Assembly (NCBI RefSeq): GCF_947503705.1
Contig: NZ_CANNES010000005.1
Span: 62,001-126,000 of the forward strand
DNA from: an uncultured Tateyamaria sp.
GTDB lineage: Bacteria; Pseudomonadota; Alphaproteobacteria; Rhodobacterales; Rhodobacteraceae
Direction of reading: 5' to 3'
Length of the DNA stretch: 64,000 nt
Part shown: positions 12,966 through 25,443 of the stretch, one piece after another
Position numbering within the stretch: position 1 is the stretch's first letter
Layout of the letters: each line of letters starts with the position of its first letter
Translations under genes and position numbers: made by a program
Notes under the pieces: model-generated
Database searches by the model: none
What the model was told of the DNA's origin: nothing
Seen by the model: the letters and a program-made list of their open reading frames with translations, nothing else

Positions 12966-14492
12966 ATGACAACGGTTGTTTGGTTCAAACGGGATTTGCG
13001 TGTGACAGATCATGCGGCGCTGGCGCGGGCGGCGGCGCTGGGCGACGTCGTGCCGCTCTATATATATGAGCCGGACTATTGGGCACTGCCGGATGTGTCG
13101 GGGAGACAGTTCGACTTTGTCGCTGAAAGCGTGGCGGCGTTGGACACGGCATTACAAGGCCTGGGGCTTGGGTTGAGCGTGCGGGTGGGCCGCGTTGTTG
13201 ACGTGCTGGCCGAATTGCGTCGCGATATCGGATTTGACCGGATGACCAGTCACGAGGAAACCGGCAACGGCTGGACCTATGCCCGCGACCTTGAGGTGGG
13301 CGACTGGTGTCGGGCCAATGGGGTCATCTGGGAAGAGTTGGCACAATCGGGCGTCGTGCGCCGCTTGAACGGGCGCGATGGCTGGGCGGTGCAACGCAAT
13401 GCATTCATGCGCCAGGCGCAGATAGAAATGCCCGGCGCGCTGAGTGGCCCAATCATGACCTCAGACCCGGTCCCGCGCCTGGTCGCGGATGACCCCTGCA
13501 CTGCGCGGCAGTTCGGTGGGCGGCCCATGGCGCTGTCCCTTCTGGGTAGTTTCCTGACCGAGCGGGGCAAGACCTATCGCCGCGACATGTCCTCGCCTCT
13601 GACCGGAGAGCGGGCCTGTTCCCGGTTGTCACCTTACTTGGCCTTTGGGTGCCTGAGCGGGCGCGAGGCGGCCCAAGCCGCAGCGGCGCGCCAGCGCGAG
13701 GTCAAAGGCACGCGCGAGGACTGGGGCGGGTCGCTGAAGTCCTTTCAGGCGCGTCTCGCTTGGCGGGACCATTTCATGCAAAAGCTGGAGGATCAGCCGA
13801 GCCTTGAGCATCAATGCCTGCATTCCGCCTATGAAGGGCTGCGACCGCTGGACCCGGACGCAGCGCGGCTGGCGGCTTGGGAAAAGGGCGAGACGGGGCT
13901 GCCCTTTGTGGATTCATGCATGCGCTATCTGAACGCGACGGGCTGGTTGAATTTTCGGATGCGGTCGATGGTGATGGCGGTGGCATCCTATCACCTTTGG
14001 CTGGACTGGCGGGTAACGGGGTTGCATCTGGCGCGGCAATTCACGGATTTTGAGCCGGGCATCCACTGGCCGCAGGTGCAGATGCAATCGGGTACGACCG
14101 GGATGAACACCGTGCGGATCTACAACCCGGTCAAACAGGGGCGGGATCAGGACCCGGATGGGGTGTTCACGCGGGCGTGGCTGCCCGAGCTGGCGGCGGT
14201 GCCAGATGAGTACCTGCAGGAACCGTGGCGCTGGGCGGGGGCAGGGCAGGTGCTGGGCCGCGTTTATCCTGCACCGATCGTGGATGTGACGGCGGCGGCG
14301 CGTGCGGCACGGGACAAGGTTTGGGCCGTGCGCAAGGGCGGGGCGTTCCGGGCCGAGGCGTCGCGGGTGATCGAAAAACATGCCAGCCGCAAAGACCCGC
14401 AGCGGCATTTCCTAAACGACCGCGCGCCCAGGCCCCGTAAGGCGGGGGTGTCCGCCGCTCGCGACACCCGCCAGATGGGATTTGATTTCTGA
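12966..14492 (+). CDS. Cryptochrome/deoxyribodipyrimidine photolyase family protein
   Basis: A 508-residue flavoprotein. The N-terminal alpha/beta domain starts TTVVWFKRDLRVTDH, as in light-harvesting-antenna domains. The C-terminal helical FAD domain shows SRLSPYLAFGCLS, the GWLNFRMRSMVM helix, and FEPGIHWPQVQMQSGTTGMNT. Members split pyrimidine dimers using blue light or act as light sensors. The Asn-Thr-Val-Arg-Ile-Tyr-Asn-Pro segment suggests a cryptochrome-like subgroup rather than plain CPD photolyase, so I leave the symbol blank. The C-terminal tail is encoded partly by a REP hairpin (14433-14459). Its stop overlaps the start of a DUF2256 gene by one base. Confidence 0.88.
   Translation: MTTVVWFKRDLRVTDHAALARAAALGDVVPLYIYEPDYWALPDVSGRQFDFVAESVAALDTALQGLGLGLSVRVGRVVDVLAELRRDIGFDRMTSHEETGNGWTYARDLEVGDWCRANGVIWEELAQSGVVRRLNGRDGWAVQRNAFMRQAQIEMPGALSGPIMTSDPVPRLVADDPCTARQFGGRPMALSLLGSFLTERGKTYRRDMSSPLTGERACSRLSPYLAFGCLSGREAAQAAAARQREVKGTREDWGGSLKSFQARLAWRDHFMQKLEDQPSLEHQCLHSAYEGLRPLDPDAARLAAWEKGETGLPFVDSCMRYLNATGWLNFRMRSMVMAVASYHLWLDWRVTGLHLARQFTDFEPGIHWPQVQMQSGTTGMNTVRIYNPVKQGRDQDPDGVFTRAWLPELAAVPDEYLQEPWRWAGAGQVLGRVYPAPIVDVTAAARAARDKVWAVRKGGAFRAEASRVIEKHASRKDPQRHFLNDRAPRPRKAGVSAARDTRQMGFDF
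14433..14459 (+). repeat. REP hairpin A (type 2)
   Basis: CCCC-GTAA followed by GGCGGGGG, loop TGT and CCGCCGCT. Seven of the eight stem positions pair (one by a G-T wobble) and one is a mismatch. It is read inside the photolyase-family gene, near its 3' end, and is the inverted partner of REP B at 14649. Confidence 0.7.
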
Positions 14493-14648: not shown

Positions 14649-14676
14649 GGCGCACCAATAGGTACGCCTTACGGGG
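14649..14676 (-). repeat. REP hairpin B (type 1, inverted)
   Basis: Read on the minus strand it is CCCC-GTAA followed by GGCGTACC, loop TATT and GGTGCGCC: an 8-bp stem with one mismatch. It starts four bases after the DUF2256 stop and could act as that operon's terminator. Confidence 0.85.
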
Positions 14677-17501: not shown

Positions 17502-17611
17502 GCGATTTGTTCAGTTGCGGCTTTGCGCACAGGCACTTGCGCGCGGGTCGCTCTGTTCACAAATGGCAGCTTTGACTATATCTGCGTCACGCGCAAATTA
17601 AGAGGTTGTTC

Positions 17612-18391
17612 ATGGCAAGGCCCATCATCGGCATCATCGCAAATCACCATGTCATCAATGAAGAGTATTGTGTGCAAGCGGCGGGAATGATCAACACCTC
17701 CGCTGTTGCGGATGTGGCTGAAGGCCTGCCGCTGCTTGTACCTGCCGAGCCTGACAAAGTGCGCATCGCCGACCTTTTGGAGCATTGTGCAGGCTTTGTC
17801 TTTACAGGCGGGCGCGCAAACGTGCATCCCGAGGAATATGGTGAAGAACCGACCGACGCCCACGGGGATTTTGACCGCGCGCGCGATCAGGTCACCTTGC
17901 CCTTGATCCGGGCCCTGGTCGAACGCGGCCAGCCTTTTCTGGGCATCTGCCGCGGTTTTCAGGAGGTCAACGTGGCCATGGGCGGTTCGCTCTATCCCGA
18001 GATCCGCGAATTGCCGGGCCGCGACAATCACCGGATGCCGCCTGACGGGACGTTGGACGAGAAATTTGCCCTCCGCCATGACGTGACCTTTTCCGAAGGG
18101 GGCGTGTTTCACAGGTTGATGGGGCGCCAGTCGGTGCCCACGAACACCTTGCACGGGCAGGGGATCAAGACGGCGGGCCCTCGTGTTGTTGTCGACGGTC
18201 ATGCCCCGGATGGGACGCCCGAGGCGATCTATATTGACGGCGCGCCGGGCTTTACCCTTTCGGTGCAGTGGCACCCGGAATGGAATGCAAAGGCAGACCC
18301 CGTGTCGCGCCCCCTATTCGAGGCTTTTGGTGCGGCGTGCCGCGATTGGTCTAACGGCAAACACGCGCACCCGGTGTTGCGAAGTGCCTGA
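17612..18391 (+). CDS. Peptidase C26 / gamma-glutamyl-GABA hydrolase-like class I amidotransferase
   Basis: About 259 residues of the class I glutamine-amidotransferase fold. The nucleophile elbow is FLGICRGFQEVNVAMGG (Cys), and the His-Glu pair is in WHPEWNAK near the C terminus, with GFVFTGGRANVHPEEYG forming the oxyanion strand. This layout fits PuuD-like enzymes that hydrolyse gamma-glutamyl amides such as gamma-glutamyl-GABA in putrescine breakdown. No other putrescine gene is adjacent, so the exact substrate is uncertain. ATG at 17612 follows AGAGG; an upstream TTG is less likely. Confidence 0.85.
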   Translation: MARPIIGIIANHHVINEEYCVQAAGMINTSAVADVAEGLPLLVPAEPDKVRIADLLEHCAGFVFTGGRANVHPEEYGEEPTDAHGDFDRARDQVTLPLIRALVERGQPFLGICRGFQEVNVAMGGSLYPEIRELPGRDNHRMPPDGTLDEKFALRHDVTFSEGGVFHRLMGRQSVPTNTLHGQGIKTAGPRVVVDGHAPDGTPEAIYIDGAPGFTLSVQWHPEWNAKADPVSRPLFEAFGAACRDWSNGKHAHPVLRSA

Positions 18392-18442: not shown

Positions 18443-19033
18443 ATGCCCAGCTACAATCGCACCGGCCGCGCAGGCGGCCTATATTTTTTCACTGTTCGGT
18501 TGGCCGATCACCGGTCTAGCCTGTTGGTGCGCGAAGTCGCGCAGTTGCGTCAGGTGACGCGCCAGACCCGCGATCGCATGCCGTTCGAGATTGTCGACAT
18601 TGTCGTTCTGCCTGCGGTGATTCACACGATTTGGAAGCTGCCTGTGGACGATTCTGATTTCTCGACCCGCTGGCGGATGTTGAAATCCCTGTTTTCGCGC
18701 GGCTTGCCTGCGCCAGAAGTGAGAGAAGGGGTGCGCTTGCGCCCCGGCGAAAAGGGAATCTGGCAGCGTCGGTTTTGGGAGCATGTGATCCGGGATGCGG
18801 ACGATCTGGCGGCGCACCGCCACATGATCCATAGCGCGCCAGTGCAGGCGGGTTTGGTGAACCGGATGCAGGATTGGCCCTGGTCGTCGGTGCACAGGGC
18901 GATTGCGCGGGGCGAAGTGCCGTCGACAAGTCCAATCGGCGACGGATATCACCCCTTGCCACCCGGGTGGCGCACCACAGGTACACCTTACGGGGATGTG
19001 GCAAGGGCGCGCCCGGAGCGGCGACAGGCGTAA
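18443..19033 (+). CDS. REP-associated tyrosine transposase (RAYT) relative, active site altered
   Basis: A 196-residue protein with the RAYT plan: GGLYFFTVRLADHRSSLL at the start, WRMLKSLFSRGLP, KGIWQRRFWEHVIRD and DWPWSSVHR. RAYTs are HUH-type single-strand nucleases that recognise REP hairpins. In typical members the metal-binding His-x-His lies in LPxHxH; here the stretch is LPAVIHTIW, so the first His is V59 and only H61 remains. The conserved Tyr before the NPV block is M128 (HRHMIHSAPV). The frame is intact, but catalysis as known for the family looks lost. Its last 20-odd residues are encoded through REP C, and REP D lies 49 bases beyond the stop. Confidence 0.85.
   Translation: MPSYNRTGRAGGLYFFTVRLADHRSSLLVREVAQLRQVTRQTRDRMPFEIVDIVVLPAVIHTIWKLPVDDSDFSTRWRMLKSLFSRGLPAPEVREGVRLRPGEKGIWQRRFWEHVIRDADDLAAHRHMIHSAPVQAGLVNRMQDWPWSSVHRAIARGEVPSTSPIGDGYHPLPPGWRTTGTPYGDVARARPERRQA
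18969..18995 (-). repeat. REP hairpin C (type 1, inverted)
   Basis: On the minus strand: CCCC-GTAA then GGTGTACC, loop TGT, GGTGCGCC. The stem is eight positions with a wobble and a mismatch. It lies inside the 3' end of the RAYT gene and faces REP D. Confidence 0.85.
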
Positions 19034-19081
19034 TCCTTGACGCAGTTGTGACATCGCGCCTGAGCTGGCCCTCGGACGTAT

Positions 19082-19108
19082 CCCCGTAAGGCGGAGGTGT
19101 CCTCCGCC
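19082..19108 (+). repeat. REP hairpin D (type 2)
   Basis: CCCC-GTAA followed by a perfect 8-bp stem GGCGGAGG, loop TGT, CCTCCGCC. It sits in the convergent gap between the RAYT gene and the SDR gene, with its GTAA pointing toward that of REP C. Confidence 0.9.
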
Positions 19109-19124
19109 TCGCGCTATCCATCCT

Positions 19125-19892
19125 TTACACCGTTTGCCCGCCAGAGATCTGGATGCTTTGTCCGTTGATGCTTTGAGAGCCGGGGCCAACCAGCCAGAGG
19201 GCTGCGGCAGCGACCTCTTCCACCTCTAGCAAACGCTTGTGGCGGTTTGCCTCTACCATGACCTGGCGTGCGGCTTCGGCGCTCATGCCTGTGCGCGCGG
19301 CGATGGCTGTCTGGTTGCGATCTACAATGGGCGTGTCCACATAGCCCGGGCACAGTGCGTTGAACGTATAGGGCTGGCTCATGTAATCCTCGCTCAGCGA
19401 CCGGACCAACCCGATCAGCCCGTGTTTTGAGGCCGCATATGCGGCAGCACCCGGCAGGCCCCGCAGCCCCGCGATTGAAGAGACTGCAATGACCCGCCCC
19501 CAATCGGTCTGGCGCATACCGCTTAGGCATTCGCGGATCGTCAGGAACGCCCCATCGAGGTTGGTGGCCATCATGTCACGCCAAAATGCCATGTCGGTCT
19601 TGTGCAGGCTGCGCCCTTCGGCAACGCCCGCATTGGGCACGCAAATCTGCACCGGGCCGCGCGCCGCCACGGCCGCCGCGATCACATCACAGACAGAGCT
19701 TTCGTCGCGCACGTCCATGGCCGCGCCGAACATCCTGTCACCGGCCACCTCGTCCAGCACCGACTGCCGCCGTCCCGTGATGGTGACTTGCGCCCCTTGA
19801 GCCGCAAGCGCCTGGGCAATGGCCAGACCAATGCCCGTACCGCCGCCAGTGACCAAAGCGTGTGTGCCGGTAAGTGTCTGTTCCTGAGCCAT
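19125..19892 (-). CDS. Short-chain dehydrogenase, 3-hydroxybutyrate dehydrogenase-like
   Basis: 255 residues of the classical SDR family: TGGGTGIGLAIAQAL at the cofactor loop, NAGVAEG, Ser in VSSIAGLRGLPG, and YAASKH with the catalytic Tyr and Lys. After the active site comes NALCPGYVDTPIVDR, which resembles D-3-hydroxybutyrate dehydrogenases, and the C terminus ends INGQSIQISGGQTV. Substrate assignment is tentative. The ATG at 19892 has AGAGGAA upstream; the in-frame extension to 20129 runs through the divergent promoter region and is rejected. It faces the RAYT gene across REP D. Confidence 0.88.
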   Translation of the reverse strand: MAQEQTLTGTHALVTGGGTGIGLAIAQALAAQGAQVTITGRRQSVLDEVAGDRMFGAAMDVRDESSVCDVIAAAVAARGPVQICVPNAGVAEGRSLHKTDMAFWRDMMATNLDGAFLTIRECLSGMRQTDWGRVIAVSSIAGLRGLPGAAAYAASKHGLIGLVRSLSEDYMSQPYTFNALCPGYVDTPIVDRNQTAIAARTGMSAEAARQVMVEANRHKRLLEVEEVAAAALWLVGPGSQSINGQSIQISGGQTV

Positions 19893-20047
19893 CGGGCGTT
19901 CCTCTGTGTGATGCCATTGAGAGTTGAGCATGGGCTTGCACCGCCCAAGGATCAACCACATCCACGCGGCAGGCCGCCATGTCTGCGCGCAAGGCGTTGA
20001 CAAAGCGTCAAAATCCCCGTCACCATGCCCGCACCACGGGAACACAT

Positions 20048-20500
20048 ATGAAAAGTATTTTGGACATACCGCCGCTTTGGCTGCTGTTTGCGATCCTGAT
20101 CGCTTGGGTTCAGGCGCGGTTTGCGCCAATGGGGCTGAGCCTTGCGTCCGGGGCGACAGACCTGATGGCAGGCGTTTTCATCGGTGGCGGAGTGCTGTTG
20201 ATCGCCTTGGCCGCCTTGGAGTTTCGCAGAGCGCGCACAACGATCCTGCCGCATCAGGTTCCGGCCAAGTTGATCACCAGCGGGATTTTCGCGCGCAGCC
20301 GCAACCCCATCTATCTAGGCGATGCGTTCATTTTGCTTGGCTTTGTCCTGCGCTTTGATGCGGTGCTGTCTCTGGTCCTGGTGCCGATCTTCATCTGGTG
20401 GATCGAACGGCATTTCATCATCCCCGAAGAAGACCGGATGCGTCGTACTTTTCGGTCAGAATTTGCGCGCTATGAACAAAAAGTGCGTCGCTGGGTGTAA
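20048..20500 (+). CDS. Isoprenylcysteine carboxyl methyltransferase-like membrane protein
   Basis: 150 residues with four to five hydrophobic segments. The conserved C-terminal block of the ICMT/phospholipid methyltransferase group is present: LITSGIFARSRNPIYLGDAFILLGF (split here by the membrane helix), then IERHFIIPEEDRMRRTFRSEFARYEQKVRRWV, which supplies the Glu-Glu and Arg residues that bind S-adenosylmethionine in relatives. Bacterial members methylate small or lipid substrates; the acceptor here is unknown. The ATG at 20048 is preferred because a signal-like helix starts directly after it. It is divergent from the SDR gene. Confidence 0.85.
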   Translation: MKSILDIPPLWLLFAILIAWVQARFAPMGLSLASGATDLMAGVFIGGGVLLIALAALEFRRARTTILPHQVPAKLITSGIFARSRNPIYLGDAFILLGFVLRFDAVLSLVLVPIFIWWIERHFIIPEEDRMRRTFRSEFARYEQKVRRWV

Positions 20501-25367: not shown

Positions 25368-25396
25368 GGCGTACCAACAGGTACGCCTTACGGGGG
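25368..25396 (-). repeat. REP hairpin E (type 1, inverted)
   Basis: On the minus strand: CCCCC-GTAA then a perfect 8-bp stem GGCGTACC, loop TGTT, GGTACGCC. It starts 12 bases after the DUF3422 stop. On the plus strand a G-run and then TTTTT follow, so it may also terminate that gene. Confidence 0.92.
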
Positions 25397-25418
25397 TTTT
25401 TGAAACGTCAGTCTCTTG

Positions 25419-25443
25419 CCCGTAAGGCGGATCTTGATCCGCC
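25419..25443 (+). repeat. REP hairpin F (type 2)
   Basis: CCC-GTAA then a perfect 8-bp stem GGCGGATC, loop TT, GATCCGCC. It is the inverted partner of REP E and ends nine bases before the stop of the permease gene on the minus strand. Confidence 0.92.

Follow-up and report, generated by a model that had tools for sequence, protein, structure and literature searches.

The window analysed here, a stretch of 64,000 nucleotides from an uncultured Tateyamaria sp. (genome G000; the first-pass annotation had placed it, rightly, in the Roseobacter group), contains a gene for a RAYT-derived protein of 196 amino acids (18443-19033, forward strand). Its fixed upstream neighbour is a Peptidase C26 gene (gamma-glutamyl hydrolase-like; 17609-18391, forward strand; Pfam PF07722, E 5.2e-60) and its fixed neighbour on the other side a short-chain dehydrogenase (SDR) gene of uncertain start (19125-20129, reverse strand; Pfam PF00106, E 1.8e-46). 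Six REP hairpins, A to F, lie in the same window, two of them at the end of the RAYT gene.

Results

A RAYT-derived protein without three catalytic residues

The annotation's identification of a RAYT gene is upheld by a match of the open reading frame at 18443-19033 to the RAYT model NF047646 (E 1.3e-43, 148.4 bits against a cut-off of 80), and the protein has the TnpAREP fold; a Pfam search with the protein assigned no family. The catalytic centre is another matter, as alignments with canonical RAYTs and with the E. coli TnpAREP structure 4er8_A find neither an intact HUH motif nor the catalytic Tyr and metal-binding Asn. Val59 (codon 18617-18619) replaces the first His of the HUH motif, which now reads AVIH; Met128 (18824-18826) replaces the nucleophilic Tyr, equivalent to Y115 of E. 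coli TnpAREP; and Ala132 (18836-18838) replaces the metal-ligand Asn, equivalent to N119 (all forward strand). Y115 is given as the catalytic residue in PMC8266576, and N119 a metal-ligand role in PMC6006769. With three catalytic positions replaced, we therefore speak of a RAYT-derived protein and not of an active RAYT, and predict, on the strength of its sequence, that it is catalytically dead (the sense in which we use ‘dead’ hereafter). The REP-contact residues are retained despite these losses. Weak matches of the same protein elsewhere in G000 (C1:1123087 and C3:170682) fall on, or adjoin, REPs.

Six hairpins at gene ends

The first-pass annotation had described the six hairpins as sharing one plan, and all are present where it had placed them, with two departures: the stem of REP A is imperfect, and the head of REP F reads GCCC instead of CCCC. 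REP A (14433-14460, forward strand) sits within the final codons of a gene for a DNA photolyase; the homologous hairpin of G015 has a perfect stem. REP B (14649-14676, reverse strand; 8 stem pairs) begins 4 nt past the stop of a DUF2256 gene. REP C (18969-18995, reverse strand; 8 stem pairs) lies within the final codons of the RAYT gene and codes for part of its C-terminal tail. The SDR gene, which is convergent, stops 16 nt from REP D (19082-19108, forward strand; 8 stem pairs). REP E (25368-25395, reverse strand; 8 stem pairs) lies 11 nt past the stop of a DUF3422 gene, and an OppC-like permease gene stops 8 nt from REP F (25418-25443, forward strand; 7 stem pairs). Two of the REPs are thus translated, REP A as part of the photolyase C-terminus (14433-14492) and REP C as part of the RAYT tail (18969-19033).

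The DUF2256 gene separates REP A from REP B, so that the two do not make up a BIME; they belong to two successive genes. With C inside the end of the RAYT gene and D, E and F each within 16 nt of a stop, C-D and E-F are best described as convergent genes, each with its own REP. The annotation was right to place C-D at the end of the RAYT gene, and what it took for a pair is the meeting of two gene ends. Its further claim of BIME-like pairs, always with one of each type, did not hold: across G000 only about 11 of 37 REP loci contain a close inverted pair (the remainder having none by our rule), and such pairs are not always of two types. Regular alternating inverted arrays, as in BIMEs, are not what these loci present, and strict BIME pairing was ruled out both by this count and by the gene layout of the window.

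The REP family of the window’s genome

Exact copies of CCCCGTAAGGNG number 42 in the 4,430,213 bases (4.43 Mb) of G000, against 1 for a reversed-pattern control, so that the genome-wide excess of the motif is real and a chance origin is ruled out; a search confined to the window that tolerates 2 mismatches (20 matches, 19.3 expected) stays at chance level and is uninformative. With the tag left free, the pattern CCCCNNNNGGCG-loop-CGCC matched 73 times in G000 and 21 times in the control, and the tags of the 73, counted by eye, include GTAA 36 times and GTAG not once, in agreement with the annotation, which had noted GTAA in place of GTAG or GTGG. The family therefore resembles a REPtron in having REPs both at the flank of the RAYT gene (C and D) and dispersed genome-wide, and departs from it in lacking the GTAG (or GTGG) tag. 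Of the RAYT/REP system that the annotation proposed, the data support RAYT-linked GTAA REPs, with one RAYT found and dozens of dispersed copies; they do not support the active mobility that it implied, or the strict BIME pairing.

By our stem rule, 38 of the 42 exact sites have a stem of at least 6 pairs (L256 being included only by allowing a 14-base loop), with L246+, L249, L252 and L270 falling short. The stems covary: in a set of 52 G000 hairpins, each with 5 or more Watson-Crick pairs, positions 5, 7 and 8 of the stem vary among GC, CG and TA, for the most part without loss of pairing. Watson-Crick cells make up 443 of 448 in G001 and 441 of 448 in G002, in 56 of 62 and 56 of 67 rows respectively, a result conditional on our having omitted nested duplicates and rows with no evident hairpin. 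The G000 stems also contain 16 GT and 2 AC pairs, but we rest no argument for a wobble strand on them, since 7 of the 16 GT belong to one pair type and the lists for G001 and G002 contain just 1 and 2 GT pairs.

The hairpins tend toward gene 3′ ends, in one orientation. Taking ORFs of at least 150 codons (a length rule that replaced unreliable greedy ORF calls), 32 of 48 G000 hairpins start 0-25 nt past a stop in the order stop-hairpin-TTACGGGG, as against 9 of 48 on the opposite strand and 149 of 4000 random positions; the latter were drawn from the same loci, coding DNA included, so the opposite strand is the fairer control. This position after stop codons, in a single orientation, is also what would be expected of the main rival to the interpretation developed below, namely that the REPs are kept for themselves as transcript-end hairpins and the dead RAYT functions otherwise or elsewhere, the two having a shared history only. 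We regard this as unlikely, for reasons that emerge when REP abundance is compared between genomes.

The dead RAYT is retained within Tateyamaria

Of 20 Tateyamaria genomes, 17 carry an orthologue whose reading frame is open and in which the same residues are lost, including G009 and G010, where it bears in-frame deletions. As for the others, G014 has a broken remnant, G016 has a canonical RAYT only, and no match was found in G006. Canonical RAYTs (with DHLH, Tyr and Asn) are also present in several genomes of the genus. The Peptidase C26 gene adjoins all 17 orthologues (window included) as well as the G014 remnant, and the SDR gene lies inside the 1.5 kb flank of 15 of the 17 (window included) and of the same remnant.

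NG86 estimates of dN/dS for the RAYT range from 0.081 to 0.209 in the 9 usable pairs of 11 (two were saturated, and the pairs share genomes and are not independent), values that rule out a simple pseudogene and indicate purifying selection in Tateyamaria. The upstream gene gives 0.008-0.046 over 8 pairs at a dS similar to that of the RAYT, which is thus less constrained than its neighbour, yet clearly constrained.

An old clade across Rhodobacteraceae

In a phylogeny of 132 RAYT sequences (9 rows omitted as short or broken; 22 of the 80 loci of one earlier set used), the window protein belongs to a clade of 41 rows with support 99/90, which includes RAYTs from Tateyamaria, a Shimia MAG, Roseobacter, Loktanella and Yoonia. 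The Tyr is absent in 40 of the 41; the Asn has become Ala in 39 and Ser in 2; and the first His is lost in 37, being retained in L127, L128, L135 and L102. All three residues are lost throughout a subclade of 26 rows (support 100/91). The only member of the 41-row clade with a Tyr is L102, from a Flavimaricola MAG (L102:2374-3050), in which HUH and Tyr are kept, the Asn is lost and GTAA REPs stand on both sides; a possible intermediate. Apart from this clade in the tree, a second small group of Rhodobacteraceae RAYTs (L169, L183, L191, L195 and L204) also has no catalytic Tyr.

Outside Tateyamaria a clade member was read in 13 genomes among 295 sampled from the family, the RAYT sequences being taken from 28 returned and 60 fetched loci, with weaker split matches left out. 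The Peptidase C26 and/or the SDR neighbour is shared by 10 of 30 loci outside the genus (9 and 8 loci respectively), and 9 of these 10 fall in the 26-row subclade; the tenth is L048, a fragment left out of the tree, whose HUH is broken in the same way. The dead RAYT occupies this locus in Shimia, Roseobacter and other genera too, so that its place has not changed from genus to genus, though its orientation between the neighbours varies. At L044, L124, L045-L047, L130 and L133 it lies between the same neighbours in the orientation opposite to that in Tateyamaria, perhaps through inversion between inverted REPs. From its distribution we take the dead clade to be old.

These results bear on the idea that the system is a relic, a recently killed RAYT amid decaying REPs. 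Missing active-site residues, the remnant in G014 and the deletions in G009 and G010 are what such a relic might leave behind; a loss common to a clade of many genera, strong coding selection, stems that are mostly paired and REPs more alike than their flanks (see below) are not, and we give this reading hardly any credence.

Residues kept, residues changed and the REP tag

In PMC8266576, Q95, D100 and R104 are named as tag-contact positions of E. coli TnpAREP; 4er8_A itself carries Glu at position 100. Among 42 rows (the 41 of the clade and the weakly placed L205), Q95 is kept in 40, E100 in 38 and R104 in 37. What has gone is the pair GE (or RE) within the last six residues: canonical RAYTs have it in 21 of 58 cases in Rhodobacteraceae and in 29 of 63 elsewhere, the 42 dead-clade rows in none. 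We infer that loss of the C-terminal GE, along with a change to Arg from Asn/Ala in strand beta-1, accompanies the shift from GTAG to GTAA.

Conserved positions specific to the clade do exist (R19, S82, K104, R126, A132 and A136), and they might be thought to have rebuilt an active site with which the protein still cuts. None of them supplies a Tyr or an evident new metal ligand, the three known catalytic residues have gone together, and the RAYTs of G004 and G013 have lost the second His as well; continued cutting by such a route strikes us as very improbable.

Tag and RAYT type go together, with exceptions. A GTAA REP stands at the 3′ end of the gene in 13 of the 17 Tateyamaria orthologues, and GTAG hairpins flank 10 of 12 canonical loci (of 28 family loci), one of them also having GTAA; within Tateyamaria the canonical-type paralogues L029, L033, L035, L036, L039 and L041 have GTAG. 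The exceptions are the canonical-type L032 and the truncated L038, near which a GTAA hairpin lies at about 1.2 kb and 0.1 kb respectively, both in genomes that also carry a dead RAYT. The 22 dead-clade loci outside the genus have GTAA in 8 cases, GTAG in 2 (L125 having both) and neither in 13. Some canonical RAYT genes (L036:1764-1833 and L147:1766-1825) have two GTAG REPs, inverted relative to each other, within the reading frame itself.

REP numbers track the REP-flanked RAYT within the genus

The pattern used to compare abundance, CGTAAGGYGN{8,18}CGCC, is modelled on the Tateyamaria form; REPs of other forms escape it, such as the GGTG..CACC ones of G302, and its counts include non-hairpins and sometimes two matches per site. 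Read in this way, the 13 Tateyamaria genomes whose dead RAYT bears a GTAA REP at its 3′ end have 42-99 matches, the four whose dead RAYT has no 3′-end REP (G008, G009, G010 and G018) have 4-15, and the three without a full dead RAYT have 1, 8 and 8, as against 2-17 for the reversed pattern over all 20. Within the genus, then, REPs are abundant only where the RAYT gene bears its own 3′-end REP, kinship among the genomes being ignored in this comparison. In G001, G004 and G011 (62, 99 and 71 matches) the dead RAYT is the only one at E 1e-5, and a search for a second RAYT in G000 found none. In the RAYT tree G018 (L024) falls within a group of REP-rich relatives; with 9 matches and no REP at its dead RAYT, it has apparently lost its REP population.

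Beyond the genus, more than 11 matches occur in 3 of 293 genomes (from the 295 sampled), namely G178 with 27, G206 with 20 and G182 with 16, all of which carry a dead-clade RAYT; the other 10 of the 13 outside genomes with such a RAYT have at most 11, a background level that counts against the interpretation developed below, though the pattern is fitted to Tateyamaria.

Against REPs kept purely for themselves, then, stand the way in which their abundance tracks a REP-flanked RAYT (13 of 13 genomes in the genus, with background levels in 7 of 7 without it), the presence of a clade RAYT in all three REP-rich genomes outside it, and the conservation of the REP-contact residues. To the credit of that reading are the four of 17 genomes in which a dead RAYT persists with few REPs, among them G018, where its dN/dS is not raised (0.126 against G003), and several dead RAYTs of other genera, such as Roseobacter, that had no flanking REP in our scans. 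Since those four genomes keep the gene without a REP population, its job may not need many REPs.

REP sites between species

Eighteen REP sites of G001 were prepared, and the 10 with cleaner flanks were searched, as joined flanks, in G012, G019 and G017; nine aligned, each with 1-3 genomes, and eight were counted, L322 being omitted for a difference in REP number (two in G001, one in the others). At all eight the REP occupies the same place in every genome fetched (18 comparisons). Over these same sites and comparisons the REP cores are identical at 402 of 416 positions (96.6%), and the flanks at 577 of 720 in the adjacent 20 nt and 1191 of 1440 at 20-60 nt (80-83%), although gene conversion could be an alternative cause of the likeness measured at these eight sites.

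At deeper splits, compared from the sites of G000, occupancy differs. Twenty sites were prepared, 11 searched (together with 19 letters of a twelfth) and seven aligned, with 1-4 genomes each. L310, with separated flank matches only, is counted neither here nor among the G001 sites. A scan for CGTAAGG hairpins found E-F in G000 and G004 and in none of 17 others (G008, where the contig ends, was left out). Besides G000, and among 15 genomes fetched, REP A is present in G004, G015 and G017, degenerate in G005 and absent in the other 11, and REP B is present in G004 and G015. L257 is occupied in G000 and G004 alone and empty in G011, G015 and G012; L245 is shared with G012 and G015; and at L265 one or both of a REP pair are retained in three genomes. 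A REP follows the same gene at L260 in G000, G004, G015 and G011 with four different yet paired stems, as if these REPs had been replaced or compensated in place. G004 and G011 have a REP in the same gap at L258, though it is not clear that the insertion is the same, and no intact REP was found at L276a (in G011 and G012) or at L254 (in G011). As to the dissemination of REPs, sites are stable in one subclade and lineage-restricted at deeper splits, where some have been either gained or lost; given the sites restricted to G000 and G004, REPs may have moved after the catalytic loss.

Might the system, then, be mobile still, the dead RAYT marking REPs that another nuclease, or an active RAYT acting in trans, cuts and moves? 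The limitation of E-F and L257 to G000 and G004 among the genomes examined, with the three empty alleles at L257, speaks for this, as do a CCCC head that is common only in the same two genomes (42 and 25, against 0-9 in the others) and the canonical RAYTs present in several Tateyamaria genomes. Against it, G000 has no second RAYT that we could find, and G001, G004 and G011 are rich in REPs with a dead RAYT only; the REP sites read in G001, G012, G019 and G017 are stable, and canonical RAYTs are mostly paired with GTAG REPs. We hold continued mobility to be improbable.

Discussion

Bringing these findings together, we think it probable that a RAYT/REP system here stopped transposing and was taken over by the host, the transposase turning into a hairpin-binding host factor. 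Three catalytic residues (the leading His of HUH, the Tyr and the metal-binding Asn) are gone from the RAYT, which keeps its fold and the REP-contact residues; the protein probably still binds REP hairpins without cutting them. The REPs would now serve as its fixed binding sites at gene ends, where protein and hairpin would act together on the end of the transcript, whether through termination, 3′ protection or the insulation of convergent genes. A bolder version, which we put forward tentatively and hold to be somewhat less than an even bet, is that of a genome-wide hairpin-binding regulator whose fixed sites, once mobile repeats, mark the 3′ ends of about 40-100 genes, the tag having turned from GTAG into GTAA when the protein ceased to cleave.

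Nunvar et al. 2013 (PMC3686654) proposed that REPs multiply and persist only where an active RAYT sustains them, and decay once it has been inactivated. In the case described here, a RAYT stripped of its catalytic residues has been retained across genera, accompanied in one genus by an intact REP set that is kept from species to species. In the open literature searched, of which our coverage was partial, we came across neither GTAA REPs nor a conserved RAYT clade lacking the catalytic residues. A match to a model named ‘REP-associated tyrosine transposase’ is no guarantee of an active enzyme. If binding has been separated from cutting in nature, as we suggest, then host function becomes testable apart from transposition.

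How does this arrangement compare with known systems? Like the REPs described here, enteric BIMEs are palindromes found at the 3′ ends of genes and at times arranged as inverted pairs; the present REPs differ in that single ones outnumber pairs, that there is a preferred orientation to the gene, and that the pairs of the window arise where genes meet. The transposases of IS200/IS605 (IS608, 2a6o; ISDra2, 2xo6) are HUH enzymes of mobile elements, whereas just one His is left here of the HUH His pair, Tyr and Asn. Set against E. coli TnpAREP (PDB 4er8) with its GTAG REPs, the present protein has no first HUH His, no Tyr and no metal Asn; and set against the RAYT/TnpAREP REPtron more generally, the tag is GTAA and not GTAG, the C-terminal GE motif is absent, and REP sites (in the subclade tested) are conserved, with no evident spread. 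A further parallel is with the REPIN/RAYT systems described as domesticated transposases in PMC8049555, which calls their exact function unknown. According to that paper, such RAYTs go on replicating REPINs at very low rates, whereas the catalytic residues are missing in the clade considered here; in common with them, the RAYT considered here is single-copy, vertically inherited and kept by its host.
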